In this document: positions 21,857 to 39,891 of the stretch, one piece after another
Numbering within the stretch: the first letter of the stretch is position 1
Layout: the number at the start of each line of letters is the position of its first letter
Source: Geobacter sp.
GTDB lineage: Bacteria; Desulfobacterota; Desulfuromonadia; Geobacterales; Pseudopelobacteraceae
NCBI GenBank assembly: GCA_009886055.1
Contig: VFJM01000054.1
Span: 1 to 41,119, forward strand
Direction of reading: 5' to 3'
DNA length: 41,119 nt
Program-made: the position numbers and the translations under genes
Notes under the pieces: generated by a model
The model's database searches: none
The model's input: only the letters and a program-made list of their open reading frames with translations
What the model was told of the DNA's origin: nothing

Positions 21857-22939
21857 CTATTTATCCTTTGGAGCACCCGCCCTGAAATGCGTGTTAAAAT
21901 GCGTGTACTGATCGATTGAACGCTGGTCCCATTCGAAACGTGCCTCAATCACAATTTTACCCGTCTTGTCGATAAACCCGCACTTCTCACCGACCTTGAC
22001 AGGTGCGAGTCCGCTAACAAAAATCGAGCCGGCGGCGAACTGAGGCTTGATCACCATCTTTCCCTGTTTGTCCATATAGCCGACCTTACCCTTGACCATC
22101 ATCGGCGCGAGACCTTCGGTGAAGATGGTTGGTGAAGGAAATTCCTGGTCGATAATCGGTTTTCCGGTTTTGTCTATTAATTGCCAGGTATCTTTCTTTT
22201 TTACAGCAGCAACCCCATCGTTAAAATTAGTCGCTTCACTGTATTGTGCGGGAATGACCATAGTGCCGGCATGATCGATAAATCCTACCATGCCGAATTT
22301 CCCGTTAATCTTGACCATGGCGAGCCCATCGCGAAACATGGCGGCCTGAAAGAACTGCTCCGGTATCACCACTTTGCCACTCTTGTCGATATAGCCGTAC
22401 TTGTTCCCGATTTTAACGGCGGCCAGCCCTTCTGAAAACTGGGCGGCATCATCAAACCGGGGCGTGATGGCATATTTGCCGCTGGCATCGATAAAACCCG
22501 CCTTGGCACCGTTCTCCTTGGCCACTACCACCGCTGCCAGCCCATCCGTAAAGGCGAACGTGGACAGGTAATCGAAATCGGTGACCGCCTTACCAGTCTG
22601 ATTGATGTAGCCCCACTTCCCCCCCTTCTGTACCGATGCCCTGCCATTCAGGAAAATTGATGCCCTATCGAAACCGGGGGGGATTACCATGTTCCCGTTG
22701 GCATCGATGAAGCCGTCCTTGCCGTTGACATGGACCGCTGCAAGTCCCTCGGAAAAGAGGGAGGCCGAGTCAAACTGAGGGGGAATAACGGTAGTCCCGC
22801 CCCGATCGCAGTAACCGTATTTGCCGTTAAACTTCACCAGAAGGCGCAATGAGTTATCCAGCACGACCTTTTTTTCTTCCCGCTGGCAGGCGGTGCAGAG
22901 CGTCAGTAATGCAAGTGCGAGAATCAGTATTCGGTTCAT
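21857..22939 (-). CDS. WG-repeat lipoprotein
   Basis: A 360-residue protein with an N-terminal lipoprotein signal (MNRILILALALLTLCTAC, lipobox LCTAC). The rest is about nine WG-type repeats of some 35 residues, with signatures such as KYGYCD, KDGFID, KWGYIN, KYGYID, VGFID and CGFID. Each is followed by a G(K/N).VI(P/K)..F block. Such repeats usually form a beta-rich binding surface. ATG 22939 is chosen for the GGAG before it and the clean signal peptide; a start 12 bases upstream is less likely. It would sit in the periplasm anchored to a membrane. A role as a scaffold for the neighbouring cytochrome assembly or ABC proteins is inference. Confidence 0.83.
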   Translation of the reverse strand: MNRILILALALLTLCTACQREEKKVVLDNSLRLLVKFNGKYGYCDRGGTTVIPPQFDSASLFSEGLAAVHVNGKDGFIDANGNMVIPPGFDRASIFLNGRASVQKGGKWGYINQTGKAVTDFDYLSTFAFTDGLAAVVVAKENGAKAGFIDASGKYAITPRFDDAAQFSEGLAAVKIGNKYGYIDKSGKVVIPEQFFQAAMFRDGLAMVKINGKFGMVGFIDHAGTMVIPAQYSEATNFNDGVAAVKKKDTWQLIDKTGKPIIDQEFPSPTIFTEGLAPMMVKGKVGYMDKQGKMVIKPQFAAGSIFVSGLAPVKVGEKCGFIDKTGKIVIEARFEWDQRSIDQYTHFNTHFRAGAPKDK

Positions 22940-22964
22940 GTGTGTCTCCATTATTTAAAGTCAT

Positions 22965-23019
22965 ACTGAAGGATGAGGACCAAAGGAAAACCTCGAAGAG
23001 TCACCCTTCTGCCTTCAGT
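22965..23019. repeat. Inverted repeat reaching into the end of resB
   Basis: Arms ACTGAAGG (22965-22972) and CCTTCAGT (23012-23019) pair over 8 bp. The right arm lies inside the last codons of the ResB gene (stop at 23001-23003), so the protein's final residues (LKAEG) are encoded by repeat sequence. Confidence 0.6.
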
Positions 23020-24365
23020 CCTTCTCCCGCTATTCCATTGAACAATTTAACAAACTCATCTTCCGCAAGGCTTTTGTAGTATTCCGAGCGTCCCGCCACC
23101 ACCAGACAGCGCACGCCATCTTGTTCCCTCACGGCGCCGACGATTTCTCTCCGGTAGAAGAGCAGCCGCCAGATAACACCGATTGTTGCAAGGGCAAAGC
23201 CGGCATACAAGATAGAGAGCCCGCGCTGCTTGACGACGTAAAAACGAACCCAGAATGGCATGTCACGCATTTCAAGGCGGTAGCCGGCAAACTCCAGAGC
23301 CCCGTTTTTTGGAACGAGCCCCTCTGCGATCTTCTTCCCCTCCCGTTCCACAGCAATGAAGAACACCGGATTGTTGAATTCCATGGAACGGGTGGCCCGC
23401 TTCCCGTTATCAAGGACATAATCCGGATAGAAAGTTGCCGTATACGTAAATCCGCCCAGGGCGAATCGGTCAGGTCTCCTTTGCAGGACATCCAGTTTTA
23501 CATAGGCTCTTTCTATCTCCACGCCGGAAGCCTCTTTGATGGCAAAGAGTGGCGACACACCGAGATGCTTGAAGACAAACGACGTGTGTTCGGTCGTGTA
23601 GGGTCGATTGATGTCGACCTCGTGGGTCTTGCCGCTGCTGTCGACCAGCAGCACACTGATTCCGGTCGGCGTATTCTGGACAACGCGCGGGACAATACTC
23701 TTTACCGTAAACGAGGCACTGGGTGGAGAGCCGATCTCCGGCATTTTCGGCTGCGGAGACTCATTATAGCGGCTGAGTTCTCCCTGAAACGATTCTCCCT
23801 GGGCAAGGTCCAGATAACCGATAAACTCGGTATACACGCTGATCATTCCGCCGAGAAGAATCAAAAAGAAACTGAGATGAAAGAGCATAAAGGCAATTGG
23901 CGCAAGACGGTTCTTCACGCCGTAAAACCCGGTTGCATCGCCCAGCACGGTGTAGCGATTTTTCCGGAGCAGGCCGATAATCTTCTCTCCATCCAGATCG
24001 CCCGGCAGGGGGTATGAGCTCCGGAACGGGTATCCCCCCACAGTCACGGGATCGGCAATCTTCGCATCAGCGAGCGTTATCCGGCTTTTGATAACCGGCC
24101 ATCGCTGCCACAGCACCAGAGACAGGTTGAGGAAAAACAGCAGCCATAAAGTTATAGTAATCGGTGAAGTGTAGATTGTGGTTAATCCGAGCGCATCAAG
24201 AAAAGCCACAAGAGAGGGAGAATTCCTTTGCCACTCAAGGTAAATTGTCTTCAGCAGCCTCTTCTGCGGAACCCAAAGGCCAATCGCAAAAATCAGTCCG
24301 AGCAGACTGATGAGCAGAATGGTAAAACGGAGGGAACTGAGATATTTGATTAGTTTTTTGAACAT
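23001..24365 (-). CDS. resB: ResB, System II cytochrome c biogenesis protein
   Basis: A 454-residue protein with four helices and a large periplasmic domain. It works with CcsA to move heme across the membrane and attach it to apocytochrome cysteines. Family features are the N-terminal LKYLSSLRFTILLISLLGLI (typical LxSxxxTxxLL), GLWVPQKRLLKTIYLEWQ, LAPIAFMLFHLSFFLILLGG with a helix histidine, and a C-terminal FAGYRLEMRDMPFWVRFYVV. A last helix with GFALATIGVIWRLLFYRREI completes the layout. It lies just after ccsA in transcription order, with an inverted repeat in the leader. Confidence 0.87.
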   Translation of the reverse strand: MFKKLIKYLSSLRFTILLISLLGLIFAIGLWVPQKRLLKTIYLEWQRNSPSLVAFLDALGLTTIYTSPITITLWLLFFLNLSLVLWQRWPVIKSRITLADAKIADPVTVGGYPFRSSYPLPGDLDGEKIIGLLRKNRYTVLGDATGFYGVKNRLAPIAFMLFHLSFFLILLGGMISVYTEFIGYLDLAQGESFQGELSRYNESPQPKMPEIGSPPSASFTVKSIVPRVVQNTPTGISVLLVDSSGKTHEVDINRPYTTEHTSFVFKHLGVSPLFAIKEASGVEIERAYVKLDVLQRRPDRFALGGFTYTATFYPDYVLDNGKRATRSMEFNNPVFFIAVEREGKKIAEGLVPKNGALEFAGYRLEMRDMPFWVRFYVVKQRGLSILYAGFALATIGVIWRLLFYRREIVGAVREQDGVRCLVVAGRSEYYKSLAEDEFVKLFNGIAGEGLKAEG

Positions 24366-24380
24366 ATTATTTTATTTTTT

Positions 24381-24425
24381 GTTGAGAGTTGAGAAATACT
24401 TATCCTTCAGATCTCAACCCTCAAC
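24381..24425. repeat. Long inverted repeat between ccsA and resB
   Basis: Arms GTTGAGAGTTGAGA (24381-24394) and TCTCAACCCTCAAC (24412-24425) form a 14-bp stem with one mismatch and a 17-base loop. It sits 16 bases upstream of the resB start, so it could affect resB translation or mRNA ends. It belongs to the same family as 13767-13824. Confidence 0.75.
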
Positions 24426-24454
24426 TTGCTTTTCCTCATCCCAGAACCGCCTCT

Positions 24455-25291
24455 TTATCTTACCTGAAAAACATGCAGGCTGGTATTAACAACAAGGTTA
24501 ACGCCAAAGAAACAGATAATGACGCTGCTCAGAGCGGCAATAGCCAGCCAGGCCAATCTCTTTTCTCGCCAGCCGAAGGTAACCCGCAAATGGATGGTGA
24601 TTCCGTAGGTAAGCCAGGATATTAATGACCACGTTTCGACCGGGTCCCATGCCCAATAGTTTCCCCACAGGTCTTTTGCCCAGATTCCTCCGGCGGTTAT
24701 CATGATCGTATCGGTAATAAAGCCAAAAACCACGTATCGGAAAATAAGCTCATCGAGACGCCCCAGAGAGGGGAATCGTTCATAGGCCGGATTCGGAACA
24801 CCCAGCGCTTCACTCTTCTGTTTCAGCAGAAAAACCACCCCTGACGCCATAGCCAGAGAATAGGCACCAAAAGAAAGCCAGGCAAAATAGACATGAATAT
24901 ACAGCCAGACGGTTTTAAGGCTCGCAGCCATGGGGGTCAACGCCGGGTTCTGCATATAGCCGTAGCCGAGCATTATCAGCACAAGTGGGACGGTACCAAC
25001 CGCTAACCCCTGCAGCTGCTTGTTCTGCCAACCGACAAACAGGGTTCCGGCAATAATGAACCACCCCCCCATCAGTGCATATTCATAATGACCCGACCAG
25101 GGAAGATGCCCCGTTGCGTTGAATCGGGCGCCAATTGCAATCGTCTGAGCCAGGAATCCAAAGGCGACCAGCAGCGTCACCTTCGAAACTACCTTGGGGT
25201 TCTTGAAAACAAAGGAGTAGATTAATCCCCCCCCCGACAGTGCGTAAGCCACCATTGCAATCAAGTAGAATATCATTTCCCAATAGGCCAT
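24455..25291 (-). CDS. ccsA: CcsA, System II heme handling and ligation protein
   Basis: A 278-residue integral membrane protein with about eight helices. The diagnostic tryptophan-rich heme-handling loop is WAKDLWGNYWAWDPVETW, followed by SLISWLTYGITIHLR. The histidines in helices (TGHLPWSGHYEYALMGG region, IHVYFAW, ITIHLRV) are the expected heme ligands. With ResB it forms the cytochrome c synthetase on the outer face of the inner membrane. AAGGA precedes ATG 25291, 21 bases downstream of the ResB-like gene. Its place upstream of atypical-motif cytochromes suggests a dedicated synthetase, which is an inference. Confidence 0.92.
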   Translation of the reverse strand: MAYWEMIFYLIAMVAYALSGGGLIYSFVFKNPKVVSKVTLLVAFGFLAQTIAIGARFNATGHLPWSGHYEYALMGGWFIIAGTLFVGWQNKQLQGLAVGTVPLVLIMLGYGYMQNPALTPMAASLKTVWLYIHVYFAWLSFGAYSLAMASGVVFLLKQKSEALGVPNPAYERFPSLGRLDELIFRYVVFGFITDTIMITAGGIWAKDLWGNYWAWDPVETWSLISWLTYGITIHLRVTFGWREKRLAWLAIAALSSVIICFFGVNLVVNTSLHVFQVR

Positions 25292-25312
25292 GTGAGTATC
25301 CTTTTATTATAT

Positions 25313-26488
25313 TTAGACTGAAAGCTTCAGTACTCTTATCGCTTCCTTCCCAACAACCCTCACCACACACCCTTCAGGCGCTTCTTCCAGCCAAACCCGC
25401 TGCGGCCGGATCGCAACCCTCAGCAAAAGTCCGATGACCGCAATGATACCGCCAGCCATCAGCAATCCCTTATGCCTTCTATGAACGACATGAATCTCGG
25501 ACCACTGCCCCATTTTTGAACAGGAGAGGATATAATCCCCCTGCAGCACCTGCTGGTCAACCTGAAACGTCATGTCGGCAACAACCTTTTTGTCACCCCC
25601 GGAGAAAACTACCAGCAAGGTGCTTTTTTCGGGTTGGTAATACACCCCGCCACCGAGATTTACCCCCTGAAACAGACCATAAAAACTGTACACGCCTCGT
25701 TTTTGCACAAGCGGATCAAGCATAACGAATTCGTCGAAAAGGGTCTTTGAGTCTCTGGTTTTGATCACTATCCGGGGCTGAAAAACAAGCTTCGCCATGG
25801 AAATATCGAAGGTGCCATAACTGACCGGCTCCCCTGGTATAAGCGTAAATTTCTGTGCTTTGCCATCTTCCGCAGTCAGAGCGACTTCAGTTGCCCCTTT
25901 CGGGTACGTGCTGCCCGGGAGGGATTGGCTGATGATCTGCATCCTCGGCAGAGAGACCGGATTGCCGGTCAAAGACCCTTTTTTGATGCGAAGGTAAGAC
26001 TCAACCTTGTTCAGATTGGTCGCAGGGCCCATACCGTCCAGCAGCACTCCGGAGAACTGGCGCAGGTTGTCCCAACTGCCGACAGCAAGGAGGATAAACA
26101 GTCCGCCGTACATAACCGTGGTGCCGAGGTAGCCGATGTCCCGCTGCTCACAGTAACGGCCGGAGGCGTCGAATGAGTATCCCGCCTTTCCCAGCAGCGT
26201 CTGAACTTCGGCAACCGGCAAGGGAAGAGTAACACCCTGGCGCGGTCTGCAGCAACCGGCTCCATACCTGACGGACTTTCTCATGCCGGTACAATAGCGA
26301 AACAATCGAATGGCAGCAAAAAGGGCAAAGCAGACATTGTTTATGAGAAGCGACGTGGCAGATCCAACCAGAGGAAGACGAACGTGCAGAGTGACGTTCA
26401 GAATAACCAGCAGCGGAATGACGAGAAAAATCAATAAAGGCCAGGGGGAAACCAGGACCAATCGGGAGAGTTTGGATTCAGCTTTCAT
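25313..26488 (-). CDS. ResB-like protein upstream of ccsA
   Basis: A 391-residue protein with paired N-terminal helices (LVSPWPLLIFLVIPLLVIL and INNVCFALFAAIRLFRYC), a further helix near residue 125-140 (YLGTTVMYGGLFILLAVGSW), a large extracytoplasmic beta-rich domain, and a final helix (GLLMAGGIIAVIGLLLRVAI). This is the ResB topology, and GTTVMYGGLFILLAVG matches the helix that carries a heme-ligand histidine in canonical ResB, although no histidine is seen there. It may be a regulatory or specificity partner of the CcsA/ResB pair. It is spaced 21 bases from ccsA. Confidence 0.68.
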   Translation of the reverse strand: MKAESKLSRLVLVSPWPLLIFLVIPLLVILNVTLHVRLPLVGSATSLLINNVCFALFAAIRLFRYCTGMRKSVRYGAGCCRPRQGVTLPLPVAEVQTLLGKAGYSFDASGRYCEQRDIGYLGTTVMYGGLFILLAVGSWDNLRQFSGVLLDGMGPATNLNKVESYLRIKKGSLTGNPVSLPRMQIISQSLPGSTYPKGATEVALTAEDGKAQKFTLIPGEPVSYGTFDISMAKLVFQPRIVIKTRDSKTLFDEFVMLDPLVQKRGVYSFYGLFQGVNLGGGVYYQPEKSTLLVVFSGGDKKVVADMTFQVDQQVLQGDYILSCSKMGQWSEIHVVHRRHKGLLMAGGIIAVIGLLLRVAIRPQRVWLEEAPEGCVVRVVGKEAIRVLKLSV

Positions 26489-26666
26489 AGGATAAGGCGT
26501 TTCCTTTTGGTGATAAAGTCAGGGATTGAGCCTCAATATCCAGCCATCGATTTATAACAAATGTCACAGAAAATGGAAACATCTAAATGTGAATATGTCC
26601 CACTGGTTGCGGGTTGTGATGAAGGTTGAGTACACTCATCTCTAATCTTTGAACTAGGAATGCCGG

Positions 26667-27182
26667 CTACTTTTTCGGCTCATCATGCTGATTTAATCCG
26701 GCCAGTTCCATTTTTCCGTTCTGTGCTCGTTCAAAAGTCAGCCGCATGTCACTAATAAAATGCTCATTTTCCAGTCGGTAGACAAGTATATGCGAATTGT
26801 CAGGACGGGTAACAAAGCTGCCCTCCTTTGGGTTTATAAGTATGCCGGTCTTCTGGCGTGTTTGTTGGAACTTTGTCACAAAATCGGCCTCAGTGCCAAT
26901 TTTCTTGAACCCGGGAGTGGACTCATTGTAAATAGCCGCGTATTCACCGGCTATAATCTGGGCAAGAACGCGAGCAGCTGCGGTCTGTGCGTCAGACTTG
27001 TCTTGGGGCGACGTCGCGAGATTACCGGCTGCATTCTGACCCGATATGGACTTGGTTCCTTTGGCTATCGGCAATTGAGGATCAGGCTTCGCCACCGGCG
27101 CATCTTGCTTGGATTTGCAGCCGATACACGCAATGACTGCGATTAGTAACAAGGCAGTTTTGATACAATGTACGCTGTTCAT
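26667..27182 (-). CDS. Lipoprotein with a DUF4019/3887-like fold
   Basis: A 171-residue protein that opens MNSVHCIKTALLLIAVIACI with lipobox IACIGC, so it should be a membrane-anchored periplasmic protein. After a low-complexity linker, residues 60-165 have an alpha plus beta pattern (AAARVLAQIIAGEYAAIYNE, FVTKFQQTRQKTG, LENEHFISDMRLTFE). This resembles small NTF2-like or DUF4019 domains, a weak match by eye. GGAG precedes ATG 27182. It is the first gene of the - strand run leading into the ResB-like gene after a 178-base spacer in which I see only a short CTCATCTCT fragment of the repeat family. Its function is unknown. Confidence 0.65.
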   Translation of the reverse strand: MNSVHCIKTALLLIAVIACIGCKSKQDAPVAKPDPQLPIAKGTKSISGQNAAGNLATSPQDKSDAQTAAARVLAQIIAGEYAAIYNESTPGFKKIGTEADFVTKFQQTRQKTGILINPKEGSFVTRPDNSHILVYRLENEHFISDMRLTFERAQNGKMELAGLNQHDEPKK

Positions 27183-27482: not shown

Positions 27483-27509
27483 AAAAAAAAGCCGGCACAA
27501 TGTGCCGGC
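27483..27509 (-). terminator. Rho-independent terminator of the cytochrome operon
   Basis: The arms GCCGGCACA and TGTGCCGGC (27491-27509) form a 9-bp stem around one central base. On the - strand the stem is followed by eight U (plus-strand A at 27483-27490). It lies about 65 bases beyond the stop of the decaheme cytochrome gene. Confidence 0.9.
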
Positions 27510-27532
27510 ATGAAATATTAGAATAAGTAAGG

Positions 27533-27559
27533 TAGAGAGGGGGGAATCCCCCCTCTCTA
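27533..27559 (-). promoter_or_regulatory. Second hairpin just after the decaheme gene
   Basis: A perfect 12-bp stem (TAGAGAGGGGGG / CCCCCCTCTCTA) with a 3-base loop sits 14 bases after the stop codon and before the terminator. It has no U tract, so a role as a 3' mRNA protecting hairpin is likelier than termination. That role is inferred. Confidence 0.7.
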
Positions 27560-27573: not shown

Positions 27574-30129
27574 TTAGTAGGTGACTGGTCGAACGATTTT
27601 CTTAACCATGCTGGTGCCTTTTCCCGGTCTCGCATTATGGTCATCGCAAGCGCCCCATGTGTCGAGAACGTCGGTTGCAGCGCCACCAGCGCCTGTGACG
27701 GATGGACCTTGTCCATTCGTTCCGTCTGCTGCAATAACACCAACAGCAAGAGCAGAATCAGTAGGTCTTCTCAGTGTGTAACAGCCTGCGCCATATGATC
27801 CGGTCTGGGCTCCTACCTTCTGCTCCCAGTTGGTATCATTGTTGACTCCGCCGGTTCTGAAGAAACCACCACTCGCGGTACTGGTATTTTTGAAGGCGGT
27901 ATCAGTCCCACCGGTGAAGCCGGCAATAGTACCCGGTACGTACATGACGTTACCGAGACCCGGCAGGAAGCGCATGGTTTTAGTGACGTTGCCCATACCA
28001 TCGATGTAGGCGCCGCCGCTTACAGTAACACCTGCGGCTGTTGCGATTGTATTGACATTTTTGCCTGTTGCGTTGGTGTTATTAGCGGAACCGTGGATAC
28101 CGCCGTAACCATTGCCAACACCGGAGTTGTGGCAGTTGTTGCACTGGATCCCGAAAATGTTGCCGAAGTCAGGATTCTGCTCGCCTGCCGGAGCGGTGCC
28201 TTTGAGCGGGAAGCCCGGAGCAAATGCCGGAGTAGCTCCGTACGTGGCAATCGGTCCTTCAATGCGGCTGAGGAACTGGGTGCCGTCGGTTGCCTTGCCG
28301 GTAGTGTAGCCGTTGAACGGCAGGGTGTTGCCGATGCCGTCGCAGCGGCCCTGCTGGTCATATTCGCCGACGTGACCGCCTGCTGCACCGGTACTAAACA
28401 AGATACTGCCATACTTGTTGTAGTTGTGGCAGTTGTAGCAGACCAGGAAGGCGCCGTTCGGGTTGGTGTAAGTAACGACACCGGCGACTTGTGTGTACGC
28501 ATTCTGGGTATGGCGCTCGTCGGTACCGATGCTGTTACGCAGCAGATACTCGTTGTTGGAGCCGTGTGCGCCGATAGCGGCCGAAGTATCGGAGCCGTTA
28601 GCGGTGGTGGAGGAACCGACTTTCCACTGGCCGACGGTGTGGCAGTCGCCGCAATGGAGGGTCGAATCGTCGCCGAGGGTTGCTGCGCCGGTACGAGGAG
28701 CAGTCTCGCCGCCTGCATTTTCAAGCGGGGTGTAGAGCTGATTGAAATTGCCGGCATCATAGATGGTTGAACGTACGCCATAGAGAGTTGCAGACGAGTT
28801 GTTGGCGAATGTTGCCGGTGAAGCAATCTGCCGTGCACCTGCTGTTCTTGTACGGCCGGAGTAGCGCGGACCTTTTACAGCGTGGTGCGAGTTGTTGGTT
28901 GTGTTGAACTGGCTGCTTGCATCAACAACTGCCGGACGCTGCATCTTGTCATAGCGGTTGGAGATGGTGTCGCCGAACGGGTTGCTTGGTGAAGCGGTTT
29001 TGCCGGTAGCAACAAGACCTGGGGTAGCATTAATGTAAGCCTGGATCTGAGCGCTCACCGGCGAAACTGCGCCGTTGGCGTCATGGCAGCTCATGCAGAA
29101 GGTATCCATGCCGGAGTGGTTCGGAGCGGCCGGATCCCATGCAAAATCGGCATCGGTATCGGCGTTACGCAGGTGGGTTGTGGCATTAGCCATATGTTTG
29201 GCAGCATCAACAACGACCTCGCCTGCGCTGATTGTGCCTTCAAGGTGGCATGCTGCGCAATGAGCATCGTTAAGAGTTACACCGGTTACGTGATGTGACC
29301 ATTTTGTGAATTCCTCGGCAATCGCACGCACACCGTTATTGTCCTGAACAAAGCCGGCGCCGGCATTCTGAGGAATTGAGTGGCAACCGATGCAGCCCTT
29401 TGTTGCTAATTTGAAGTTATGTGTTGTGTGGCATTTGCCACAGGTGTTAATTGCGCCACCGGTATAAGTGGCATGGTTCGGAGTTGGATTACCAGCGTGA
29501 CAAGTGGCGCATCTGCCACTGGCGGCAGGGTTCAAGTCGTTATGCGAAGTGCCGTGGCAACCGGCGCAGCCGGCTTTGGTTGAACCATTCCACAGGGGGA
29601 AATCGCCATTGTTAGAGTAGTGTCCGGACTGTTTGTAGTTGGCAACCAGATTTGACTCATCAGTATCACGAGTCGTCTGATGACAATTAAGACAGGGTGC
29701 GGTTTCTGCCTTGACAAGAGGGGCAGACGCAGTAATCGATACCGCCGTCGGAATGCCGGCATCTACTGTTACATTTGTGGCGACGCCTTCATACAGCATG
29801 ACGTTGCCGGCATCGAATGCCTGGGCAGTCACAGTCAGGTTTCTGCCGGGATAGACTTCGACTGTCCCGCCTGTGTTATTCGCAAAATCTTTTGTCGCGG
29901 TCGGGATGGTTGAACCGGTAACCGTCAGACGGGTTTTTACGACATCAACCGCAGCTGCGACAGTTTTACCCGCACTCTTAGGCAGTACCAGGTTGGCGGT
30001 AATCTTGCCGCTGGGGCTGTTTTTGGCATCAATGCCTGCTGTTGTGTTGTTACTTGCTCCACAGCCGGATAATGCAAAGATCAACAGACCATAAAGCGTG
30101 TACTGAATCATTCGCATACTGTTTCTCAT
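27574..30129 (-). CDS. Decaheme c-type cytochrome lipoprotein
   Basis: An 851-residue protein with a lipoprotein signal (MIQYTLYGLLIFALSGC, lipobox ALSGC). Residues 40-140 form a beta-rich Ig-like domain with no heme. Ten CXXCH motifs follow at about residues 146, 188, 207, 230, 246, 291, 345, 493, 564 and 663 (CLNCH, CAGCH, CATCH, CGKCH, CIGCH, CAACH, CMSCH, CGDCH, CYNCH, CNNCH). The last 185 residues have no heme motif but a conserved-looking tail with Cys783 and a CDDH at 828. ATG 30129 has AAGGAG upstream; the frame extends further without character. Ten hemes recall MtrC/OmcA, but the motif spacing differs and homology is not claimed. It is probably exported to the outer surface as the terminal electron donor of this operon. 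Confidence 0.9.
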   Translation of the reverse strand: MRNSMRMIQYTLYGLLIFALSGCGASNNTTAGIDAKNSPSGKITANLVLPKSAGKTVAAAVDVVKTRLTVTGSTIPTATKDFANNTGGTVEVYPGRNLTVTAQAFDAGNVMLYEGVATNVTVDAGIPTAVSITASAPLVKAETAPCLNCHQTTRDTDESNLVANYKQSGHYSNNGDFPLWNGSTKAGCAGCHGTSHNDLNPAASGRCATCHAGNPTPNHATYTGGAINTCGKCHTTHNFKLATKGCIGCHSIPQNAGAGFVQDNNGVRAIAEEFTKWSHHVTGVTLNDAHCAACHLEGTISAGEVVVDAAKHMANATTHLRNADTDADFAWDPAAPNHSGMDTFCMSCHDANGAVSPVSAQIQAYINATPGLVATGKTASPSNPFGDTISNRYDKMQRPAVVDASSQFNTTNNSHHAVKGPRYSGRTRTAGARQIASPATFANNSSATLYGVRSTIYDAGNFNQLYTPLENAGGETAPRTGAATLGDDSTLHCGDCHTVGQWKVGSSTTANGSDTSAAIGAHGSNNEYLLRNSIGTDERHTQNAYTQVAGVVTYTNPNGAFLVCYNCHNYNKYGSILFSTGAAGGHVGEYDQQGRCDGIGNTLPFNGYTTGKATDGTQFLSRIEGPIATYGATPAFAPGFPLKGTAPAGEQNPDFGNIFGIQCNNCHNSGVGNGYGGIHGSANNTNATGKNVNTIATAAGVTVSGGAYIDGMGNVTKTMRFLPGLGNVMYVPGTIAGFTGGTDTAFKNTSTASGGFFRTGGVNNDTNWEQKVGAQTGSYGAGCYTLRRPTDSALAVGVIAADGTNGQGPSVTGAGGAATDVLDTWGACDDHNARPGKGTSMVKKIVRPVTY

Positions 30130-30261
30130 TTTGGCTTCTCCTTTTCTTTTAGTTTTACTCTTGGGATCAAAAATGCCATGTAGTTTTTCTATTCGATCCT
30201 CCTTTCCTCTTAATTTTTCACCAATGTGCCCTGTTTCCATTGTTTTCTAGACGAGGTAAAC

Positions 30262-31779
30262 TCATGCTGGATAAACGAGAGAGGTGGTTACCGTCCCGTT
30301 CGGATAGGTTGTCGAGGTCGTCACCGTACCATTCGGATACGTTATCCCGATAGTTACCGTACCGTTCGGATACGTTGTCAAGGTGGTTACCGTCCCGTCC
30401 GGATAGGTTGTCGTGATTGTTACCGTACCGTCCGGGTAGGTTGTCACACCGGTTACCGTGCCCGGAGTGAGTGGCACAGCCGCAAAATCCATTCCGGTGA
30501 CACTTGCAGTGGTGACGTCGACTGGTCTGTTCACCGGGGTAAACGCAAAACCGATTAATGTAGGAGTTATGACGTAGCTGCCTGCGCGTACACCGGTGAA
30601 AGTATAATTGCCGTCTGCATCGGTGAGAACGACACCGGTGCCGGATCCGGAAACGGCCACAAATACTGAGGAGAGACCGGTACCATTGCTGGTGATTCTA
30701 CCGGATATTGTATAGGTCAGGATCGGAAGCGTAGTAACAGGTATTGTGCTGCCGGCAGAGACATTCCCGGCGGCGTCACGTGCCTTTACTTCATACGTAT
30801 ATGAGGTTGCTGCATTGACTGCCGTGTCTGTATAGGTAAGAGTCGGAGCGGCAACTGTGCTGAACAATACGTTGTTGCGATAAACGTAATACGCGGTGAC
30901 CCCGACGTTATCCGTTGCAGCGTCCCAGGAAAGCGTTATCGAGCTGGCAGTGGGAGTCGCCTTAAGATTTTGCGGTGCTGACGGTGCTGTGACATCAGTC
31001 GGATCCGGTTCCGGCACCGGGATAATTACCGGTGGTGTGAAAGTGCCTGGAATCACACCCGCGCCAATCAGATCAGCAGTGGAAGCAACTATTGCTGCAT
31101 TCAGGGCAGTGAAAAGAGCCCCCTCACCCAAATGCATTATACCCGTTGCGGGATTGACTGTGACCATATCTGCTATTGTGTTGGTAGGAGTGATAAGTGA
31201 ATTTATTGCCTGGATCATAACGACCAACTGCTGCTGCGCCGGGGTGAGGGCAGCTCCGGGCAGCGGAGGAGGAATCTGAGTAAAGTTCAGGCCCAGAAAA
31301 GGCTCCAATACCAGAGTTGCTTTCTGAATGTTCTCAGCGGTAAAGCTTCCGCCCATGTTCGCTGTGATATATTGAGAGACCATATCTGTAGCAGGACTGA
31401 TCACTACAACTTGACCTGGCGCAACAGACGGCAGAACAGAGCTAAGAGCTATTGTTCCAGTTCCCGTTGTCTCTGTTGCCACAAACTTTATCCCGCCAAC
31501 ATACCCTTCCGGAATCTTCAGGATGAAGTTTCCCTGGCCATCGCTTTGAACAGTAGCTGATAAGGGGGTAGTTGACACATTTCCGGCCGCATCAATTGCG
31601 TATGCGGTAACTGCTGCATTAGCGAATGGCTTCCCACCAGTGCTGTCAGAGACAACACCTCTGACCTCCCTTAATGCAGGAGCATCTGAGGTACCACCTC
31701 CACTGCACCCGTATAGGAATAAAGACAGAGAGGCGAGTATTATCGCTTTTAAAGTGAACCTCTTCCAATTGGTACACAT
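30262..31779 (-). CDS. Surface lipoprotein with carboxypeptidase-regulatory-like and FN3 domains and an 11-residue repeat tail
   Basis: A 505-residue lipoprotein (signal AIILASLSLFLYGC, lipobox LYGC) with a good AGGAGG before ATG 31779. Domain order is as follows. A carboxypeptidase-regulatory-like beta domain lies near residues 36-105 (VRGVVSDSTGGKPFANAAV), then an alpha-rich linker. A fibronectin type III domain covers about 268-350 (PSAPQNLKATPTASSITLSW), and a second regulatory-like domain about 355-438 (ISGRITSNGTGLSSVFVAV). Six 11-residue units of the form GTVTxxxTYP(D/N) fill residues 440-505. It carries no heme motif, so it is likely a structural or adhesive partner of the neighbouring cytochromes. 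Confidence 0.85.
   Translation of the reverse strand: MCTNWKRFTLKAIILASLSLFLYGCSGGGTSDAPALREVRGVVSDSTGGKPFANAAVTAYAIDAAGNVSTTPLSATVQSDGQGNFILKIPEGYVGGIKFVATETTGTGTIALSSVLPSVAPGQVVVISPATDMVSQYITANMGGSFTAENIQKATLVLEPFLGLNFTQIPPPLPGAALTPAQQQLVVMIQAINSLITPTNTIADMVTVNPATGIMHLGEGALFTALNAAIVASTADLIGAGVIPGTFTPPVIIPVPEPDPTDVTAPSAPQNLKATPTASSITLSWDAATDNVGVTAYYVYRNNVLFSTVAAPTLTYTDTAVNAATSYTYEVKARDAAGNVSAGSTIPVTTLPILTYTISGRITSNGTGLSSVFVAVSGSGTGVVLTDADGNYTFTGVRAGSYVITPTLIGFAFTPVNRPVDVTTASVTGMDFAAVPLTPGTVTGVTTYPDGTVTITTTYPDGTVTTLTTYPNGTVTIGITYPNGTVTTSTTYPNGTVTTSLVYPA
30265..30462 (-). repeat. Six tandem 33-bp units encoding GTVTxxxTYPD/N
   Basis: The last 66 codons before the stop are six in-frame 33-base units. 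Encoded cores are VTTYPDGTVTI, TTTYPDGTVTT, LTTYPNGTVTI, GITYPNGTVTT, STTYPNGTVTT and a final SLVYPA. The first two copies differ from the others in D versus N and in third codon positions, so the array is not freshly amplified. Confidence 0.9.
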
Positions 31780-31825
31780 ACTAACTCCTCCTTCTGATTC
31801 TTATTTCCAATTATTTATTTCAGAT

Positions 31826-32422
31826 TCATATGCCGCTGCCGCCTGGCAATGATGCTTCAAAATCTTGTCCGCCAAGCATATTGTTCGTGATAGTGAATGG
31901 TGTGCCGGTGTTATAAATTATTGTGCCATCACCTGAAAGTTTATTACCGGTCCCTTCAGGATTGTAAATATAGACCGTCCCGCTGTCTGTGATAGTGATA
32001 ACGCCGATGCTGCTTCTGGTCGGCACCTGAGACCATTTAAAAACATACATGCCTGATGTCGGCACGATCGTGTATTTACCACTGTACACACCGGCGAAGC
32101 TATATACCCCTTGCTCATTGGTTGATGACTGCACAAAGGCTGAATCAAGCTTAATGCTTTCTAAACCATTCAAATCCCTGGTGCTGTAAAACATATTATC
32201 TATCGAGTAAATCGTATAACTGGTCTTGTAGAGCTTTACCGTGCCCCCGTTAACTGGCGTGCCGTCGGAAAGGGTGATTTTTCCCGTTACGGTGAAACCG
32301 CCACCGCCATTATCGGTGCCGCCGCCATTATCGGTGCCGCTGCCGCCGCACCCGACCAGGAGCAGCGACAAAGCGGCTGATAACATAATTGCTGCGGCAT
32401 ATCTGTGAATTTCAAATAACAT
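31826..32422 (-). CDS. Lipoprotein with one Ig-like (CarboxypepD_reg) domain
   Basis: A 198-residue lipoprotein (signal AAAIMLSAALSLLLVGC, lipobox LLVGC), followed by a flexible Gly/Asn linker with a duplicated TDNGGG. A single beta-sandwich domain runs from about residue 42 (FTVTGKITLSDGTPVNGGTV) to the C-terminus, with the usual strand pairs GVYSFAGVYSGKYTIVPTSG and DSGTVYIYNPEG. This is the carboxypeptidase-regulatory-like fold found in many surface proteins of this group. AGGG lies close before ATG 32422. It is placed between cytochrome and FN3-lipoprotein genes of one operon. The role is probably structural or interaction-related; no heme or metal motif is seen. Confidence 0.8.
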   Translation of the reverse strand: MLFEIHRYAAAIMLSAALSLLLVGCGGSGTDNGGGTDNGGGGFTVTGKITLSDGTPVNGGTVKLYKTSYTIYSIDNMFYSTRDLNGLESIKLDSAFVQSSTNEQGVYSFAGVYSGKYTIVPTSGMYVFKWSQVPTRSSIGVITITDSGTVYIYNPEGTGNKLSGDGTIIYNTGTPFTITNNMLGGQDFEASLPGGSGI

Positions 32423-32479
32423 ATCACCCTAGTTCTCTTTGCAAAACCTGCTGATGACAATCAGCTGTCACTGGCATGA

Positions 32480-33427
32480 TTACTTGATCCACTGCGCATT
32501 GAATGAGTGACATACAACGTTACTGCATGTTTTTGTGCTGAGAGTGTAGGAACCGATTTTTGTCGGGGCGCCCCCGATGGTATTGCCGGGAATAGTAAAC
32601 GTTTTGGTTGTAAGCCCCCCGAAGTGCTGCTGGTAGTCGGTCAGTGTGCCGATGTTGTGGCAATCTGTACAATTGGCACCTTGGTCAACCACATGAAACG
32701 CATGCAGATTAGTTATACCGTTTGGAGAGAAGACCCCTGAGTAAAAGCTGTTGTACTGAGGCACCCCGGCAGCGGTTCCCTGCTCGTGGCACTTGAGGCA
32801 GAGGTTGTTGTCATTCGCAACGATATTGATCGAGCCGGTCCAGGCAGGTGTAACTTTCCCGCCATGACAGCTGACATTAGAACAGGTTCCGTCGGCATTA
32901 TAGCCAAAGGTGCCTGAAGCGGGGTTAACATCGAAGTCTGCAGGCAGAGCGACTGTCGCTTTTCTTATTCCCCCGGCGGCATCCGCCATGGCATGACCGG
33001 GCGTACCGTAACCGGCTTTAAAGTGACAGGTGCCACACCCGATCCCGGGCAGCGCGGTATGTTTCGTATGGGCAGCTTTCCTGTTCGGAGCTAATGTGCC
33101 AAAGGGGCCACTTGGCAAGCCACCATGACACGAAACACATCCGTTCAGGTTAGCGGCCGGGCTGGTGGCATGGCAGGTAAAGCCACTGACAGCTGACTGA
33201 CTCATGCAGCTAACCTTTGAAATACCACCATCATAATTTTTGCCGTGACACTCATCGCATGACGCAACATTTGCCTTGGCCGATGCTTTGTGTGTACTCA
33301 CCCAATCCGACGGGTGCCCACCTTCTGGGCTGAATAAAACCGCTTTGTCGTTCCTGTCGCCGCAGCCGCCAAGGGCAAGCGACAGGAGTGCGGAAAGTAG
33401 TACATGAGATGGTTTTATCGATGGCAT
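32480..33427 (-). CDS. Multiheme c-type cytochrome lipoprotein with atypical CX4CH and CX10CH motifs
   Basis: A 315-residue lipoprotein (signal HVLLSALLSLALGGC, lipobox LGGC). Heme-type motifs in order are CDECH, an odd CX10CH (CMSQSAVSGFTCH), CVSCH, CGTCH, CX4CH (CSNVSCH), CLKCH, CTDCH and a final CX4CH (CSNVVCH) near the C-terminus. That gives five classical and up to three atypical sites. The CX4CH then CXXCH order matches the family first described from Geobacter sulfurreducens. ATG 33427 is chosen because AGAGG sits upstream; GTG 33436 is possible. The start overlaps the end of the pentaheme gene by 13 bases. It is likely a periplasmic or membrane-surface electron carrier. Confidence 0.88.
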   Translation of the reverse strand: MPSIKPSHVLLSALLSLALGGCGDRNDKAVLFSPEGGHPSDWVSTHKASAKANVASCDECHGKNYDGGISKVSCMSQSAVSGFTCHATSPAANLNGCVSCHGGLPSGPFGTLAPNRKAAHTKHTALPGIGCGTCHFKAGYGTPGHAMADAAGGIRKATVALPADFDVNPASGTFGYNADGTCSNVSCHGGKVTPAWTGSINIVANDNNLCLKCHEQGTAAGVPQYNSFYSGVFSPNGITNLHAFHVVDQGANCTDCHNIGTLTDYQQHFGGLTTKTFTIPGNTIGGAPTKIGSYTLSTKTCSNVVCHSFNAQWIK

Positions 33428-33858
33428 GACGCGCACCTCTCATTGTTCTGGCGGCCGTGGCATTTGACACACGATACCGGATCTACCCGGCCGTCAATTT
33501 TGTGCTGGCTGAGATAATTGCCGCGGTGAGGAAGACTTCGTTCGGGTGAATTGGAGAACTTGTCACTCGGCTTGATCTCTTCCTTGTGGGCGTGACAGTC
33601 GGAACAGAATGATTCCTGATGGCAGGAGCTGCATGCCTGACGTGACGAAGCGGCATAGAAACGATGCTTGGCCATAAAGTCGGGGGCGCGATGGTTCATG
33701 GCACCCCAGGAGTCGCTATGGCATGCCGTGCAGTCGGGCAGCCCCTTTTTGCTGACATCTTCAGGGTGGGTACGCGGCAGACTGGCGGTGTTGGCGCATG
33801 CGTACAGCAAACTCATCATCAGCAGAAGAATTGACATGATTACAATTTTATTTTTCAC
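33415..33858 (-). CDS. Pentaheme c-type cytochrome lipoprotein
   Basis: A 147-residue lipoprotein (signal IMSILLLMMSLLYAC, lipobox LYAC) with five CXXCH motifs: CTACH, CSSCH, CSDCH, CVKCH, CASCH. Spare histidines (NHRAPDF, KHRF, LPHRG, SQHKI) would serve as distal ligands. The GTG start at 33858 is chosen because GGAGG precedes it. It overlaps the outer-membrane barrel gene by 11 bases and ends inside the next cytochrome gene, so translation is coupled. With the barrel it may form a trans-outer-membrane electron path, which is inference. Confidence 0.88.
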   Translation of the reverse strand: MKNKIVIMSILLLMMSLLYACANTASLPRTHPEDVSKKGLPDCTACHSDSWGAMNHRAPDFMAKHRFYAASSRQACSSCHQESFCSDCHAHKEEIKPSDKFSNSPERSLPHRGNYLSQHKIDGRVDPVSCVKCHGRQNNERCASCHR

Positions 33859-35164
33859 TCTTTGTCCCTCCTTCAGCAGTAAACTTTGAGTCAAACGTGT
33901 AGGTCGCCTTGACAAGAGCGCGAACCTCGTTGTCAAAATCGGGATTTCTTGAATATTCAACATCGGCCCCGACTCTTAACCTCCGATTGAACTCGTAGCC
34001 GGCCGCTCCGGTGATCGCAAAGCTGTTTTTGATGCCGTTGATTCTGTTGTCATAGTTTATGTTTATTGCGTCAATCGTCAGGTCGGCATGACCGATTTTC
34101 TTGGAGGCAAAGGCACGTAACTCGACATAGCGCAGTTTGGAGATTTCCCCCGACATGCGATGGAACCCCGCTCCGACTACCATCGCTTCCGGCAGGGAGT
34201 AGGTCGCCTTGCCGCCGAAATACGAGGAGTCGCCGGACTGGTTATAGCTGTAGAATTTGTAGTCCGCGGCTATGGTCAGATTCTTGATCGCACTGTAGGC
34301 GGCGTTGACGCCGACGGCCGTCTGTCTTTCATTGCTTTTCCAGATCGGGTTGGTGGTGCTTAACGCCGATGTAGTCATGCCGTATAAATAATCTTTGAAG
34401 TTGATGCGCGAAAAGTCTGCGCCGAACCGAAGGGTTGAGAGCGGTGAAAAGGTGGCGGCGTAGCTGTGTTCCATCCAACCGTCGGTAATGGAGTTGTAGG
34501 TTGAGCGGCCGGCCAGGTCGATCTGCTGAAGCGGCCGCAGCCAGAGATCAAACCCCTCCTCTTCTCGGTAGCGGGAGTTGTCTTCACGCTCGCTTTTGAG
34601 GGCGCTCAGGCCGACGGTATAATATTTTTTGTCGCTCTGGGAGATGCGGGTACCGTAGATAACCGTCCCTCCCTGGTAGGTCGGCTCTGTGATTACGGAG
34701 TTGCCGAAGAACGCCGATGCGTTGATGCCATAGGCAAAGTCGCTGCGCAGATACAGGCCGTCGATCCGCTCTGCGGCGACTCCTTCACTGATGAACTGAC
34801 GGCCAACCGTAGCAGCGGTGTTGTTCTTCGGAGCGTGGTAGGTGAGGTAGGCGTACTGGAGATCACCGTCGGTACTGCTGGACGTTGACTTGTCCCCCAG
34901 GTCGACACGACCCCAGGCGCCGAGGTAAAATGATACCCCCGAGCCGTCACTGCGTTTGTCGGTCATGTTGAGACGAAGGTATTCGTAGGCAGGAAAAAGG
35001 TCTTTCTTGTCGATCGTTGTCCGCATGCGTAAGATCGTGGTGGACTCACCTGAAAATGAATAGTCATACGCGATGAGAGGCGTTGACCACAGCAGTGTTG
35101 AAACCAGCACTGCCACCCCAGCCCCAAGGGCCAAACAGCTTTTTTTCGTGTGGTTACGTTTCAA
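33848..35164 (-). CDS. Outer-membrane beta-barrel (porin) of the cytochrome operon
   Basis: A 438-residue protein with an N-terminal signal peptide (VAVLVSTLLWSTPLIA, then YDYSFSGE). The remainder is rich in alternating polar and aromatic residues, the pattern of transmembrane beta-strands (STTILRMRTT, DLQYAYLTYHAP, GGKATYSLPEAM, VRALVKATYTFDSK). No heme motif is present. It starts with TTG at 35164, preceded by GGAAAGGA, because the only nearby ATG is out of frame. The first gene of the operon, it is followed by the pentaheme gene with an 11-base overlap. It may be the barrel that lets cytochromes exchange electrons across the outer membrane. No similarity to MtrB is claimed. Confidence 0.82.
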   Translation of the reverse strand: MKRNHTKKSCLALGAGVAVLVSTLLWSTPLIAYDYSFSGESTTILRMRTTIDKKDLFPAYEYLRLNMTDKRSDGSGVSFYLGAWGRVDLGDKSTSSSTDGDLQYAYLTYHAPKNNTAATVGRQFISEGVAAERIDGLYLRSDFAYGINASAFFGNSVITEPTYQGGTVIYGTRISQSDKKYYTVGLSALKSEREDNSRYREEEGFDLWLRPLQQIDLAGRSTYNSITDGWMEHSYAATFSPLSTLRFGADFSRINFKDYLYGMTTSALSTTNPIWKSNERQTAVGVNAAYSAIKNLTIAADYKFYSYNQSGDSSYFGGKATYSLPEAMVVGAGFHRMSGEISKLRYVELRAFASKKIGHADLTIDAININYDNRINGIKNSFAITGAAGYEFNRRLRVGADVEYSRNPDFDNEVRALVKATYTFDSKFTAEGGTKSEK

Positions 35165-35294
35165 AATATTCCATCCTTTCCGGAAGATGCGTTCTGCTTA
35201 GCCATGATATGTTGAGTGATATTGCGGCGTGTGAGGCAAAGGCTGTACGATATCTCCTTTCTGTTACGTCGGTTGACCAGATTACCATTGTGTA

Positions 35295-35322
35295 TACATA
35301 TCCTACTAATTGAGCTTGTCAA
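35295..35322 (-). promoter_or_regulatory. Candidate promoter for the porin-cytochrome operon
   Basis: On the - strand TTGACA (plus 35317-35322) and TATGTA (plus 35295-35300) are 16 bases apart, about 130 bases before the TTG start at 35164. Pattern only. Confidence 0.35.
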
Positions 35323-35626
35323 GTTGATCTGCTAAAAAAAATTATCATTATTAGATATTTCATATACATTAATTTACAAATAATTAGTCTGTTGTCGGTG
35401 ATATGACTTAATACAATCAAAAGCACATCACTTCGTTAAAACACAGTATATCGGAATTACAAGGCATAACATCCCGATTTCATACCTAGTAAATTACAAA
35501 AAGTTAAAACAACGGGACCAATTAATACCGGCAAACGACGTACCGATTATGACTGCTTTTATTTGATTTGCATAAATCAGACCTAATTATGCAAAAAAGC
35601 AGGCACTCCCATTGTTAGTCGTAACA

Positions 35627-35656
35627 TTGACAAACATGCCTCTACATTATTATAGT
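35627..35656 (+). promoter_or_regulatory. Sigma-70-like promoter of the zinc ribbon gene
   Basis: TTGACA at 35627-35632 and TATAGT at 35651-35656 are 18 bases apart, 40 bases before the ATG at 35697. AGAGGAG (35680-35686) is the ribosome site. Confidence 0.55.
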
Positions 35657-35696
35657 GCATATATGCTATTAACACTGTCAGAGGAGTTTACACGTC

Positions 35697-35933
35697 ATGC
35701 CGATGTACGAATACCGTTGCACAAGCTGTAATCACCAATTTGAGCTGCGTCAGAAATTTTCCGATCCGCCGGCCAGCCAGTGCCCGCAATGTGACGCTGC
35801 CGTAGAAAAAATGGTCTCGTCCACCGCTTTCAGCCTGAAAGGTGACGGCTGGTTTAATACCGGCTACTGTCCAAAAACCGAAGCCCCAAAACCGGCCGGG
35901 TGTGCCGGTGGCGGATGTTGCGCGGCAGCATAG
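35697..35933 (+). CDS. FmdB-family zinc ribbon protein
   Basis: A 78-residue protein with the FmdB-type zinc ribbon: MPMYEYRCTSCNHQFELRQK (first CxxC) and ASQCPQCDAAVEKMVSS (second CxxC), the usual start and spacing. The rest is a short tail with a Cys-rich end (CAGGGCC). FmdB-type proteins are annotated as putative regulators, but no clear activity is established. A good ribosome site (AGAGGAG) and a sigma-70-like promoter precede it. The small size and housekeeping-like context suggest a conserved chromosomal gene unrelated to the cytochrome operon next to it. Confidence 0.88.
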   Translation: MPMYEYRCTSCNHQFELRQKFSDPPASQCPQCDAAVEKMVSSTAFSLKGDGWFNTGYCPKTEAPKPAGCAGGGCCAAA

Positions 35934-36033: not shown

Positions 36034-36134
36034 AGGCGAGAATATTATTCCCCCTCATTTCGGTAACCCGGCGGGCCTCTATCAGGACCAGGGGTGGTGT
36101 CATGCGGGGGAAATATTTCCAGAGGAGTTTTGAC

Positions 36135-36998: not shown

Positions 36999-37028
36999 AG
37001 CCGTACCGGCTCGCGAATAAGCAACAAA

Positions 37029-37060
37029 AAAAGGCGGGCCGCATGTCGGGCTCGCCTTTT
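37029..37060. terminator. Bidirectional terminator between galU and the TIGR04073-like gene
   Basis: Arms AAAAGGCGGGCC and GGCTCGCCTTTT pair over 12 bp with one wobble around an 8-base loop. Runs of A upstream and T downstream give U tracts on both strands, and it lies between convergent genes. Confidence 0.88.
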
Positions 37061-37104
37061 CTATTATTCTATTGCAAAGCGGCTGGGGAGTACCACTATG
37101 GTCG

Positions 37105-37494
37105 TTACTGCTCTTCATCGACCACCTTTGACGTGTCTCGTTTCGGTTCCCATCCCTGCCAGACGAATTCCGGGTCTATCATCGGATCATAATATCCGGG
37201 CTGAGGGACCATGCAGAAAAGCGTTTCCGCTACCCCGATCACGCCGCGATAAAAAGTCATCCCGACCCCTTTTATCGGGCCGATGATATAGCCTACCGGT
37301 CCCAGGTCACGTCCGGTCAGGATCGTCTGTTTTGGAAGTTCAACAACACTGGTGACTGTGTTTGTGATTCCTCTCACAAACTTGATCGCCATCTTCTCCG
37401 CAATCATTTCCGGCTGCTGATCGGCAGTCGCCAGAGCCGGCCCCATCAGAACGAAAGCAGATAAAAGCGCTGATAGCAACAGAACCTTTTTCAT
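37105..37494 (-). CDS. TIGR04073-like exosortase-associated protein
   Basis: A 129-residue exported protein with a clean signal peptide (MKKVLLLSALLSAFVLMGP, cut after ATA). The mature part has AEKMAIKFVRGITNTVTSVV, ELPKQTILTGRDLGPVGY and GVGMTFYRGVIGVAETLF, the pattern of the small family tied to exosortase and EPS systems (TIGR04073-like). AAGGAG precedes ATG 37494. No exosortase or PEP-CTERM substrate is seen in this window, so the association is from the family only. It converges on galU across a bidirectional terminator. The molecular role is unknown. Confidence 0.72.
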   Translation of the reverse strand: MKKVLLLSALLSAFVLMGPALATADQQPEMIAEKMAIKFVRGITNTVTSVVELPKQTILTGRDLGPVGYIIGPIKGVGMTFYRGVIGVAETLFCMVPQPGYYDPMIDPEFVWQGWEPKRDTSKVVDEEQ

Positions 37495-39870: not shown

Positions 39871-39891
39871 GACGTTTCTCTGCGTTTGGGT

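Follow-up and report, generated by a model that had tools for sequence, protein, structure and literature searches.

The 41,119-nucleotide stretch of contig VFJM01000054.1 analysed here (the window), from an uncultured Geobacter relative, carries an operon of an outer-membrane beta-barrel, three multiheme cytochromes and two further lipoproteins (g1 to g6 in transcription order), which raises the question of whether these genes form a route for electrons across the outer membrane and, if so, how that route is related to those already described. Our analysis indicates that the operon is probably a porin-cytochrome (Pcc) conduit carrying respiratory electrons across the outer membrane. What is seen in the sequence is a set of homologies to OmbB, OmaB and OmcB, genomic places held in common with ombB-omaB-omcB, no co-occurrence of the two types within the genus, and a mosaic surface cytochrome, g6. 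An earlier sequence-only reading had proposed a candidate new electron conduit whose gene set it could not match to a known one. We still favour a trans-outer-membrane role, and no characterised conduit has an identical gene set; the conduit is not wholly new, however, because g1, g2 and g6 are homologous to OmbB, OmaB and OmcB, respectively, the operon lies at a place where some relatives have ombB-omaB-omcB, and a cluster resembling it has been described for Geobacter sp. M18, so that we read it as a Pcc variant. OmbB, OmaB and OmcB are labelled throughout by gene set (a barrel of about 403 residues, an octaheme cytochrome of about 231 residues and, in most loci, a surface lipoprotein with 9 to 12 CXXCH motifs), as described for G. 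sulfurreducens (PMC4245776, PMC4589669), and their complex is reported to pass electrons in proteoliposomes (Liu et al. 2014, cited in PMC4589669).

Profile-profile comparison (hhalign) aligned the g1 family with the OmbB family over 393 columns at E 5e-20, with about 20% identity in the profile alignment, against E 0.16 for a GalU control, and aligned the g2 family with the N-terminal part of the OmaB family (columns 2 to 142 of 233) at E 1.6e-22. In eight genomes searched, the barrel-family profile matched OmbB-like proteins in five (G038, G041, G046, G048 and G050; E 7e-14 to 2e-11), and the pentaheme profile matched the OmaB-like proteins of the same five (E 2e-20 to 1e-16), with an additional weak match in G046. 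The OmbB-like protein of G041, used as a query, recovers the window barrel in its own genome at E 2.1e-6, and g2 matches the OmaB-like protein of locus L046 at E 3e-11. Set against the description of Pcc clusters in PMC4245776, g1 is a porin-like protein similar to OmbB at BLAST E < 0.01, g2 is an adjacent multiheme cytochrome similar to OmaB, and g6, by its predicted location, is the outer-membrane multiheme lipoprotein cytochrome present in most clusters. Relatives of g1 are 52 to 76% identical within the genus and about 45 to 55% identical in Geomonas and others of the order, and there is a paralogue family with barrels 30 to 35% and pentaheme proteins 44 to 47% identical. Against PF13505, g1 scored 20.2 bits, under the cut-off of 28.7. 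A search of solved structures by sequence gave nothing useful for g1, g3 or g6, and for g2 a weak nitrite reductase match only (E 0.011). Outside the order, a barrel-pentaheme-CX4CH core with a barrel 38% identical occurs at L031 (DMKB01000317.1), a contig labelled Nitrospiraceae, if the bin label is right.

The operon does encode the 20 CXXCH motifs counted earlier (five in g2, five in g3 and ten in g6), and the eight candidate sites of g3 bring the total to 23 candidate heme sites. A chance origin of these motifs is ruled out by residue shuffles, which gave a mean of 0.02 to 0.05 CXXCH and a maximum of 1 to 2 (2000 shuffles for each of g2, g3 and g6), and the motif is absent from all 34 other open reading frames (ORFs) among the 37 kept from the window. 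Invariant across 23 homologues of g2 are all of its CXXCH motifs and, beyond these, precisely five histidines (31, 56, 65, 111 and 119), the pattern that five bis-histidine hemes would predict; its putative lipobox cysteine is kept in at least 90% of these rows. The strict lipobox pattern is matched by g3 (LGGC), g4 (LVGC) and g6 (LSGC), and g2 (LYAC) and g5 (LYGC) have a tyrosine at -2, as judged by eye. Of the two lipoproteins called Ig-like by the sequence-only reading, g5 does have fn3 and CarboxypepD_reg domains above cut-off, whereas g4 has a weak CarboxypepD_reg-like match below it. The C-terminus of g5 also shows TYPNGTVT-like repeats by eye, and this protein may be a surface scaffold or adhesin.

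In the mechanism that we propose, g1 would form a barrel in the outer membrane; g2, which corresponds to the N-terminal portion of OmaB, would sit inside or beneath that barrel; g3 would lengthen the heme chain; and g6, as an OmcB-type decaheme lipoprotein, would be the surface terminal reducing Fe(III), Mn(IV), humics or partner cells, with g4 and g5 as scaffold or adhesin lipoproteins of the surface. By homology to the OmbB-OmaB-OmcB complex, electrons would pass from periplasmic cytochromes to g2 at the barrel, on to g3 and then to g6. Which of g2 and g3 comes first in this chain, and on which membrane face each lies, are guesses, and we infer the protein locations, the attachment of hemes, the direction of electron flow and the acceptor. 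The operon would be the counterpart of ombB-omaB-omcB, at a place that other genus members use for that operon, with g1 to g5 and the first part of g6 replacing ombB-omaB and the start of omcB, and with the OmcB-type body and the downstream g7-ResB-CcsB block retained.

The g6 protein is a mosaic that joins a cluster-type N-terminal part (approximately residues 1 to 250 of the longest ORF, within which the true start is probably Met38 or Met42 by eye) to an OmcB-type body (approximately residues 300 to 888). Segments of residues 1 to 240 show 39 to 64% identity to the shorter, 9-heme lipoproteins found in clusters of this type (L022, L034, L036 and L039), and identity to these short proteins falls to 20 to 31% between residues 301 and 600. 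Among six OmcB-position proteins compared, none has a counterpart of residues 1 to 120, and three proteins of loci without an adjoining barrel have a weak one (24 to 32%, except for nine columns at 44%). Residues 301 to 800, by comparison, are 46 to 84% identical to the OmcB-position proteins of L072, L079, L080 and L081 and 23 to 63% identical to those of L045 and L046. Whole-protein blastp gave 51% (L072), 55% (L080), 59% (L081) and 43% (L079, genome G033) identity to omcB-position proteins. The OmcB-like protein of G041 is more distant, at 36.6% across an alignment of 703 residues. Relatives adjoining OmbB were found in G048 (63%, residues 173 to 888; 55% by whole-protein blastp), G052 (68%, residues 197 to 888; 59%) and G003 (59%, in two pieces; 51%). 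The score of g6 against the Pfam MtrC/MtrF domains II/IV was 28.2 bits, under the 30-bit cut-off. An assembly fault can be dismissed, since four other genomes of this type carry the same mosaic (L035, L062, L091 and L092). When the g6 bodies are placed in a tree, which has long branches for G018, G041 and G038, proteins from loci of this type, of the OmbB type and of neither type are intermixed, with 8 changes against a shuffled mean of 10.3; shuffles were as low in 9 of 200, which indicates some clustering.

In the window the operon lies between metK-polB-TIGR04073-galU (36102-41117) and g7-ResB-CcsB-ResB-WG repeat-ABC permeases (18995-27182). On the polB side of the same locus, five genus genomes carry ombB-omaB-omcB (L072, L077, L078, L085 and L086), with metK seen in all except L078, galU in all except L072, and, in L078 and L085, ombB separated from galU by two ORFs; polB and galU stand beside this cluster type in the window, L034, L035, L047, L050, L023, L024, L027 and L065. 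Nucleotide similarity of the leader side to the OmbB-type loci L072, L077, L085 and L086 of the genus stops near 35623-35682. On the other side, three loci have g7-ResB-CcsB-ResB, with the same gene order, behind ombB-omaB and an OmcB-type gene: L079 belongs to the genus and has its ombB truncated where the contig ends, and L080 and L081 belong to the same taxonomic order. The g6-g7-ResB-CcsB block is also found without either barrel alongside (L093 and L099; in L094 and L095 the contig stops close to g6) and is therefore a module of its own.

A pair of sister species, G022 and G011, captures what such an exchange would look like. Up to the operons they share 92.4% identity across 2.5 kb of one flank and 90.5% across 7.5 kb of the other, with 88.6 to 93.0% identity further out, and the operon cores between them, of 8.3 and 5.7 kb, are so unlike that blastn gives no match of at least 80 bp. 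On this nucleotide comparison the pair is a case of replacement in place, and recombination in the flanks may be what drives the exchange. We regard as evenly balanced the broader proposal that the locus is an exchange site at which the cores of two anciently diverged Pcc classes would be swapped as cassettes via conserved flanks, with some exchange points within the gene for the surface cytochrome, and that a single OmcB-type body would thereby work with two classes of barrel and heme wire, and that g3 in addition binds a heme at a CX10CH (or CX11CH) site grown from CXXCH. That cytochromes of this kind change fast and are exchanged has been reported as a general matter (PMC12977616); in the literature searched, with partial coverage of papers, we found no statement of in-place exchange with ombB-omaB or of the g6 mosaic.

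Across 39 genus genomes this barrel was present in 21, OmbB in 12, neither in six and both in none (Fisher p 4.7e-6, kinship ignored), and a search for OmbB at E 1e-40 in the window's genome found none. These lists were compiled by hand, with at least 45% identity and a long strong match defining this type and at least 49% identity the OmbB type; G015 was counted as this type from two fragments at 79%, some OmbB-type calls came from partial matches (such as G033, G108, G113 and G120), and G012 (a 63-residue fragment of this type) and G028 (OmbB fragments) were counted as neither. On an rpoB tree of 25 genomes the two types are scattered, and type needs at least 7 changes (6 to 8 in bootstraps), 4 of them forced by well-supported branches, and shuffled labels gave a mean of 8.5, with 104 of 500 as low as the observed 7. 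For this tree rpoB was searched in 30 of the 33 genomes with either type (G015, G033 and G111 were left out); G002, G014 and G036 gave no match and the partial G004 and G112 were dropped, leaving 25 rows that include the partial G032.

These patterns bear on two other explanations of the operon. With a common genus locus, homology of all three key components and cytochromes that in this group evolve quickly (PMC12977616), the operon could be a plain ombB-omaB-omcB orthologue that has rapidly diverged; we consider this extremely improbable, because the OmbB proteins of genus relatives are 51 to 58% identical to that of G041 against about 20% for this barrel (profile alignment), g2 is a pentaheme rather than an octaheme, three genes are extra, the search of the window's genome at E 1e-40 gave no OmbB, and both types occur together in ten genomes. 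The operon could also be a set of surface cytochromes and adhesins whose barrel serves export or anchoring and offers no electron path through the membrane, since g4 and g5 resemble scaffold or adhesive lipoproteins and g2, g3 and g6, all lipoprotein-like, could share one membrane face. The homology of barrel and pentaheme to OmbB and OmaB, which are parts of a complex reported to carry electrons, together with an exclusivity with OmbB that points to the same role, makes that arrangement very unlikely.

Several observations weigh against the conduit and its in-place exchange. The conduit function is read from sequence, no solved structure searched by sequence matches g1, and the count of strand-like peaks in g1 (26, against 20.4 with sd 1.9 in shuffles) is weak by itself because the shuffle maximum is also 26. 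Neither conduit type is bound to one place: this type lies without metK-polB alongside in several genus loci (for example L036, L048, L061, L062 and L066), as does the OmbB type in L074, L075, L083, L087 and L088. Ten of the 141 genomes of the order carry both types, eight of them in genus g9, taken for Geomonas (G069, G072-G076, G080 and G081), the others being G108 and G116, so that exclusivity is a genus-level pattern. Ten of the 22 inner branches of the rpoB tree are weak, and distances between barrels rise with those between rpoB genes (Mantel r 0.48 for n = 14, a value reached in 95 of 5000 permutations), which indicates that inheritance is partly vertical. A second rpoB sister pair, G027 and G020, gave no flank match of at least 150 bp on a 6-kb contig.

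The product of the third gene, g3, scored 39.4 bits against TIGR01904, above the cut-off of 27. The up to three atypical sites suggested earlier are present: a CX10CH site spans residues 77-89, and two CX4CH sites span 185-191 and 304-310. Nine homologues share without variation all eight of the CH sites and a further eight histidines (41, 49, 123, 126, 148, 245, 248 and 271), as many as there are candidate heme sites, and the partner cysteines are all invariant except C304 (seven of nine as aligned). When each CH is paired with the nearest preceding cysteine in 31 g3-like rows, ten have eight sites spaced 2-x-2-2-4-2-2-y, with y from 3 to 6; x is 10 in six of these (window, L034, L035, L036, L039 and L108), 11 in L062, 5 in L031 and 2 in L049 and L061. 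Seven rows have six sites spaced 2-2-4-2-4-2, and the other fourteen differ or are partial. The site at 77-89 seems, from this comparison, to have grown from CXXCH to CX10CH or CX11CH with its place retained, and a heme is presumably bound there. CX3-15CH motifs in Pcc cytochromes are already mentioned in PMC4245776, and in the literature searched we found no paper joining CX10CH or CX11CH with heme. A dedicated heme lyase for the CX10CH site was rejected because the ResB-CcsB block also stands behind OmbB-type cores, and homology of g3 to the C-terminal part of OmaB was rejected on a match of 29 columns only.

Of 39 places, 35 had 1.5 kb or more of downstream sequence, and 33 of these 35 showed the core unit of barrel, pentaheme and CX4CH cytochrome in this order; of the two misses, G072 is a failure of the text pattern, with the pentaheme present, and G027 is real, with no CX4CH gene in 4.2 kb. 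A protein with at least eight CXXCH lies within 9 kb of the core at 26 of the 35 places, contig ends permitting. This class of conduit is probably already on record: a Pcc cluster described in 2014 for Geobacter sp. M18 combines a 10-heme protein with two cytochromes, one of 5 hemes and one with CX3-4CH motifs (PMC4245776). In M18, GM18_3461-3469 holds a gene triplet in two identical copies, each encoding a periplasmic cytochrome with 5 hemes and an outer-membrane cytochrome that has one CXXCH plus five CX3-4CH, and a 10-heme gene (3465) between the triplets, a duplicated layout that fits Geomonas loci such as Geomonas azotofigens L025 (compared by description only). The window operon, unlike that of M18, is single copy, has five CXXCH in g3 and has an OmcB-type g6 body. 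With OmbB-OmaB-OmcB, compared via genes recognised by gene set, it shares the order of barrel, small multiheme cytochrome and surface multiheme lipoprotein, the remote barrel and pentaheme homology, the OmcB-type body and the common genus places, and it differs in its low barrel identity, in the mosaic g6, in having a pentaheme and an eight-site cytochrome for one octaheme, and in two extra beta-sandwich lipoproteins.

The first three genes, a barrel, a pentaheme lipoprotein and a multiheme cytochrome with atypical sites, are also composed as described for extEFG of G. sulfurreducens (PMC6148476), and atypical motifs are known in GSU_2724 (PMC4245776), so that the operon could be an ExtEFG conduit and not a class of its own. 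The paralogue family has the same composition and adjoins ombB-omaB-omcX in L147, L149 and L150, much as extEFG (GSU2726-2724) is near omcC (GSU2731) by gene number. We nonetheless judge this identification unlikely: the window's genome has both this cluster and a separate member of the paralogue family on contig C204, so the two are different gene sets, and the label ExtEFG for that family is itself taken from composition. ExtG is described as a periplasmic dodecaheme protein whose operon continues to hydrogenase genes (PMC6148476). The C204 cluster (L041) has a barrel, a pentaheme and a 15-heme protein and is probably ExtEFG-like. At L147 (12116-16456) an ExtEFG-like barrel has, on its upstream side, a cytochrome resembling g6 and an fn3 lipoprotein resembling g5, an arrangement by which surface parts seem to be shared among conduit classes. 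ExtABCD, compared by description only, likewise has a barrel followed by a pentaheme lipoprotein, but its cluster includes the dodecaheme ExtA, whereas no heme gene precedes g1 and its upstream neighbour is a zinc-ribbon gene; the missing extA does not by itself exclude kinship, because extBCD clusters without a nearby extA are noted in PMC6148476. MtrCAB of Shewanella shares the general architecture of barrel, threaded cytochrome and surface decaheme and differs in that no operon protein matches a solved Mtr chain by sequence and the Pfam match of g6 is below cut-off.

The six ORFs and their coordinates, as first called, are all open (Table 1). The overlap of the first three genes also holds, with 11 bp between g1 and g2 from the GTG start of g2 at 33858 (116 bp if the longest g2 ORF is taken) and 22 bp between g2 and g3. 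A terminator had been placed behind g6, and a hairpin with eight T's is indeed present at 27509-27491, about 65 bp past the gene, with a further hairpin at 27559-27533; the scan statistics alone are weak, because the region has 17 such sites against 9.8 expected. The TTG start of g1 and a leader of about 60 nt are conserved in all seven aligned loci of this type. At 35165-35260 the window leader carries a short ORF, its TGA overlapping the TTG of g1, that is broken in G036 as judged by eye. The leader has no Rfam match that would indicate an RNA switch; sigma-54 promoter matches in the window number 4 against 4.66 expected, none near 35165-35640, and a sigma-70 promoter for the operon was considered and not established.

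Table 1. Coordinates of the operon, its parts and neighbouring features in the window
Feature	Position	Strand	Basis or remark
Six-ORF operon (g1-g6)	27574-35164	minus	all ORFs open
g1, outer-membrane beta-barrel, 438 aa, TTG start, remote OmbB homologue	33848..35164	minus	ORF and hhalign
g2, pentaheme cytochrome, probable lipoprotein, 147 aa from GTG	33415..33858 (longest ORF to 33963)	minus	23-row alignment and hhalign
g3, lipoprotein cytochrome, 318 aa, 8 candidate heme sites (5 CXXCH, 2 CX4CH, 1 CX10CH)	32480..33436	minus	
CX10CH site of g3, residues 77-89	33170..33208	minus	CXXCH, CX5CH or CX11CH at same place in relatives
g4, small beta-sandwich lipoprotein, 198 aa	31826..32422	minus	ORF, lipobox, Pfam
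g5, probable lipoprotein, 505 aa, fn3 and CarboxypepD_reg domains	30262..31779	minus	ORF, Pfam
g6, predicted decaheme surface lipoprotein, 888 aa as longest ORF, mosaic	27574..30240	minus	
Two terminator-like hairpins, second with T8 run	27491..27559	minus	hairpin scan
Operon leader	35165..35623	minus	nucleotide comparison, aligned loci
g7, lipoprotein-like ORF behind g6	26667..27182	minus	also behind ombB-omaB-omcB-type genes in L079-L081
Cytochrome c maturation block	21857..26488	minus	same order behind OmcB-type genes in L079-L081
ResB-like	25313-26488	minus	cytochrome c maturation block
CcsB	24455-25291	minus	cytochrome c maturation block
ResB	23001-24365	minus	cytochrome c maturation block
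WG-repeat protein	21857-22951	minus	cytochrome c maturation block
Zinc-ribbon gene, divergent, upstream of g1	35697-35933		

Two further observations concern the neighbourhood. Two permeases and an ABC ATPase at 18228-21386 are 89 to 95% identical to genes adjoining ombB-omaB-omcB in G038 and G041, a conservation that is unusual next to such variable cytochrome genes. A family B DNA polymerase (37630-39870) and a TIGR04073 (exosortase-associated) protein (37105-37545) are kept beside the conduit locus.

In summary, the kind of conduit is itself known, and the new points are the lack of co-occurrence with OmbB in the genus together with the replacement in place, the g6 mosaic and the apparent shift of a g3 site from CXXCH to CX10CH or CX11CH. 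In a published comparison the periplasmic cytochrome was retained and the surface lipoprotein replaced (PMC6148476); here the pattern is the reverse, with the body of the surface cytochrome retained and the membrane core replaced. The combination of a retained body and a swapped core would permit a direct test of whether the parts are interchangeable and of which part sets the acceptor, and the series of CX2CH, CX5CH, CX10CH and CX11CH at one site is a natural test of the length to which a heme c motif can be extended. In G. metallireducens, three Pcc clusters are reported to overlap in their roles (PMC11389400). A missing ombB need not mean a missing conduit.

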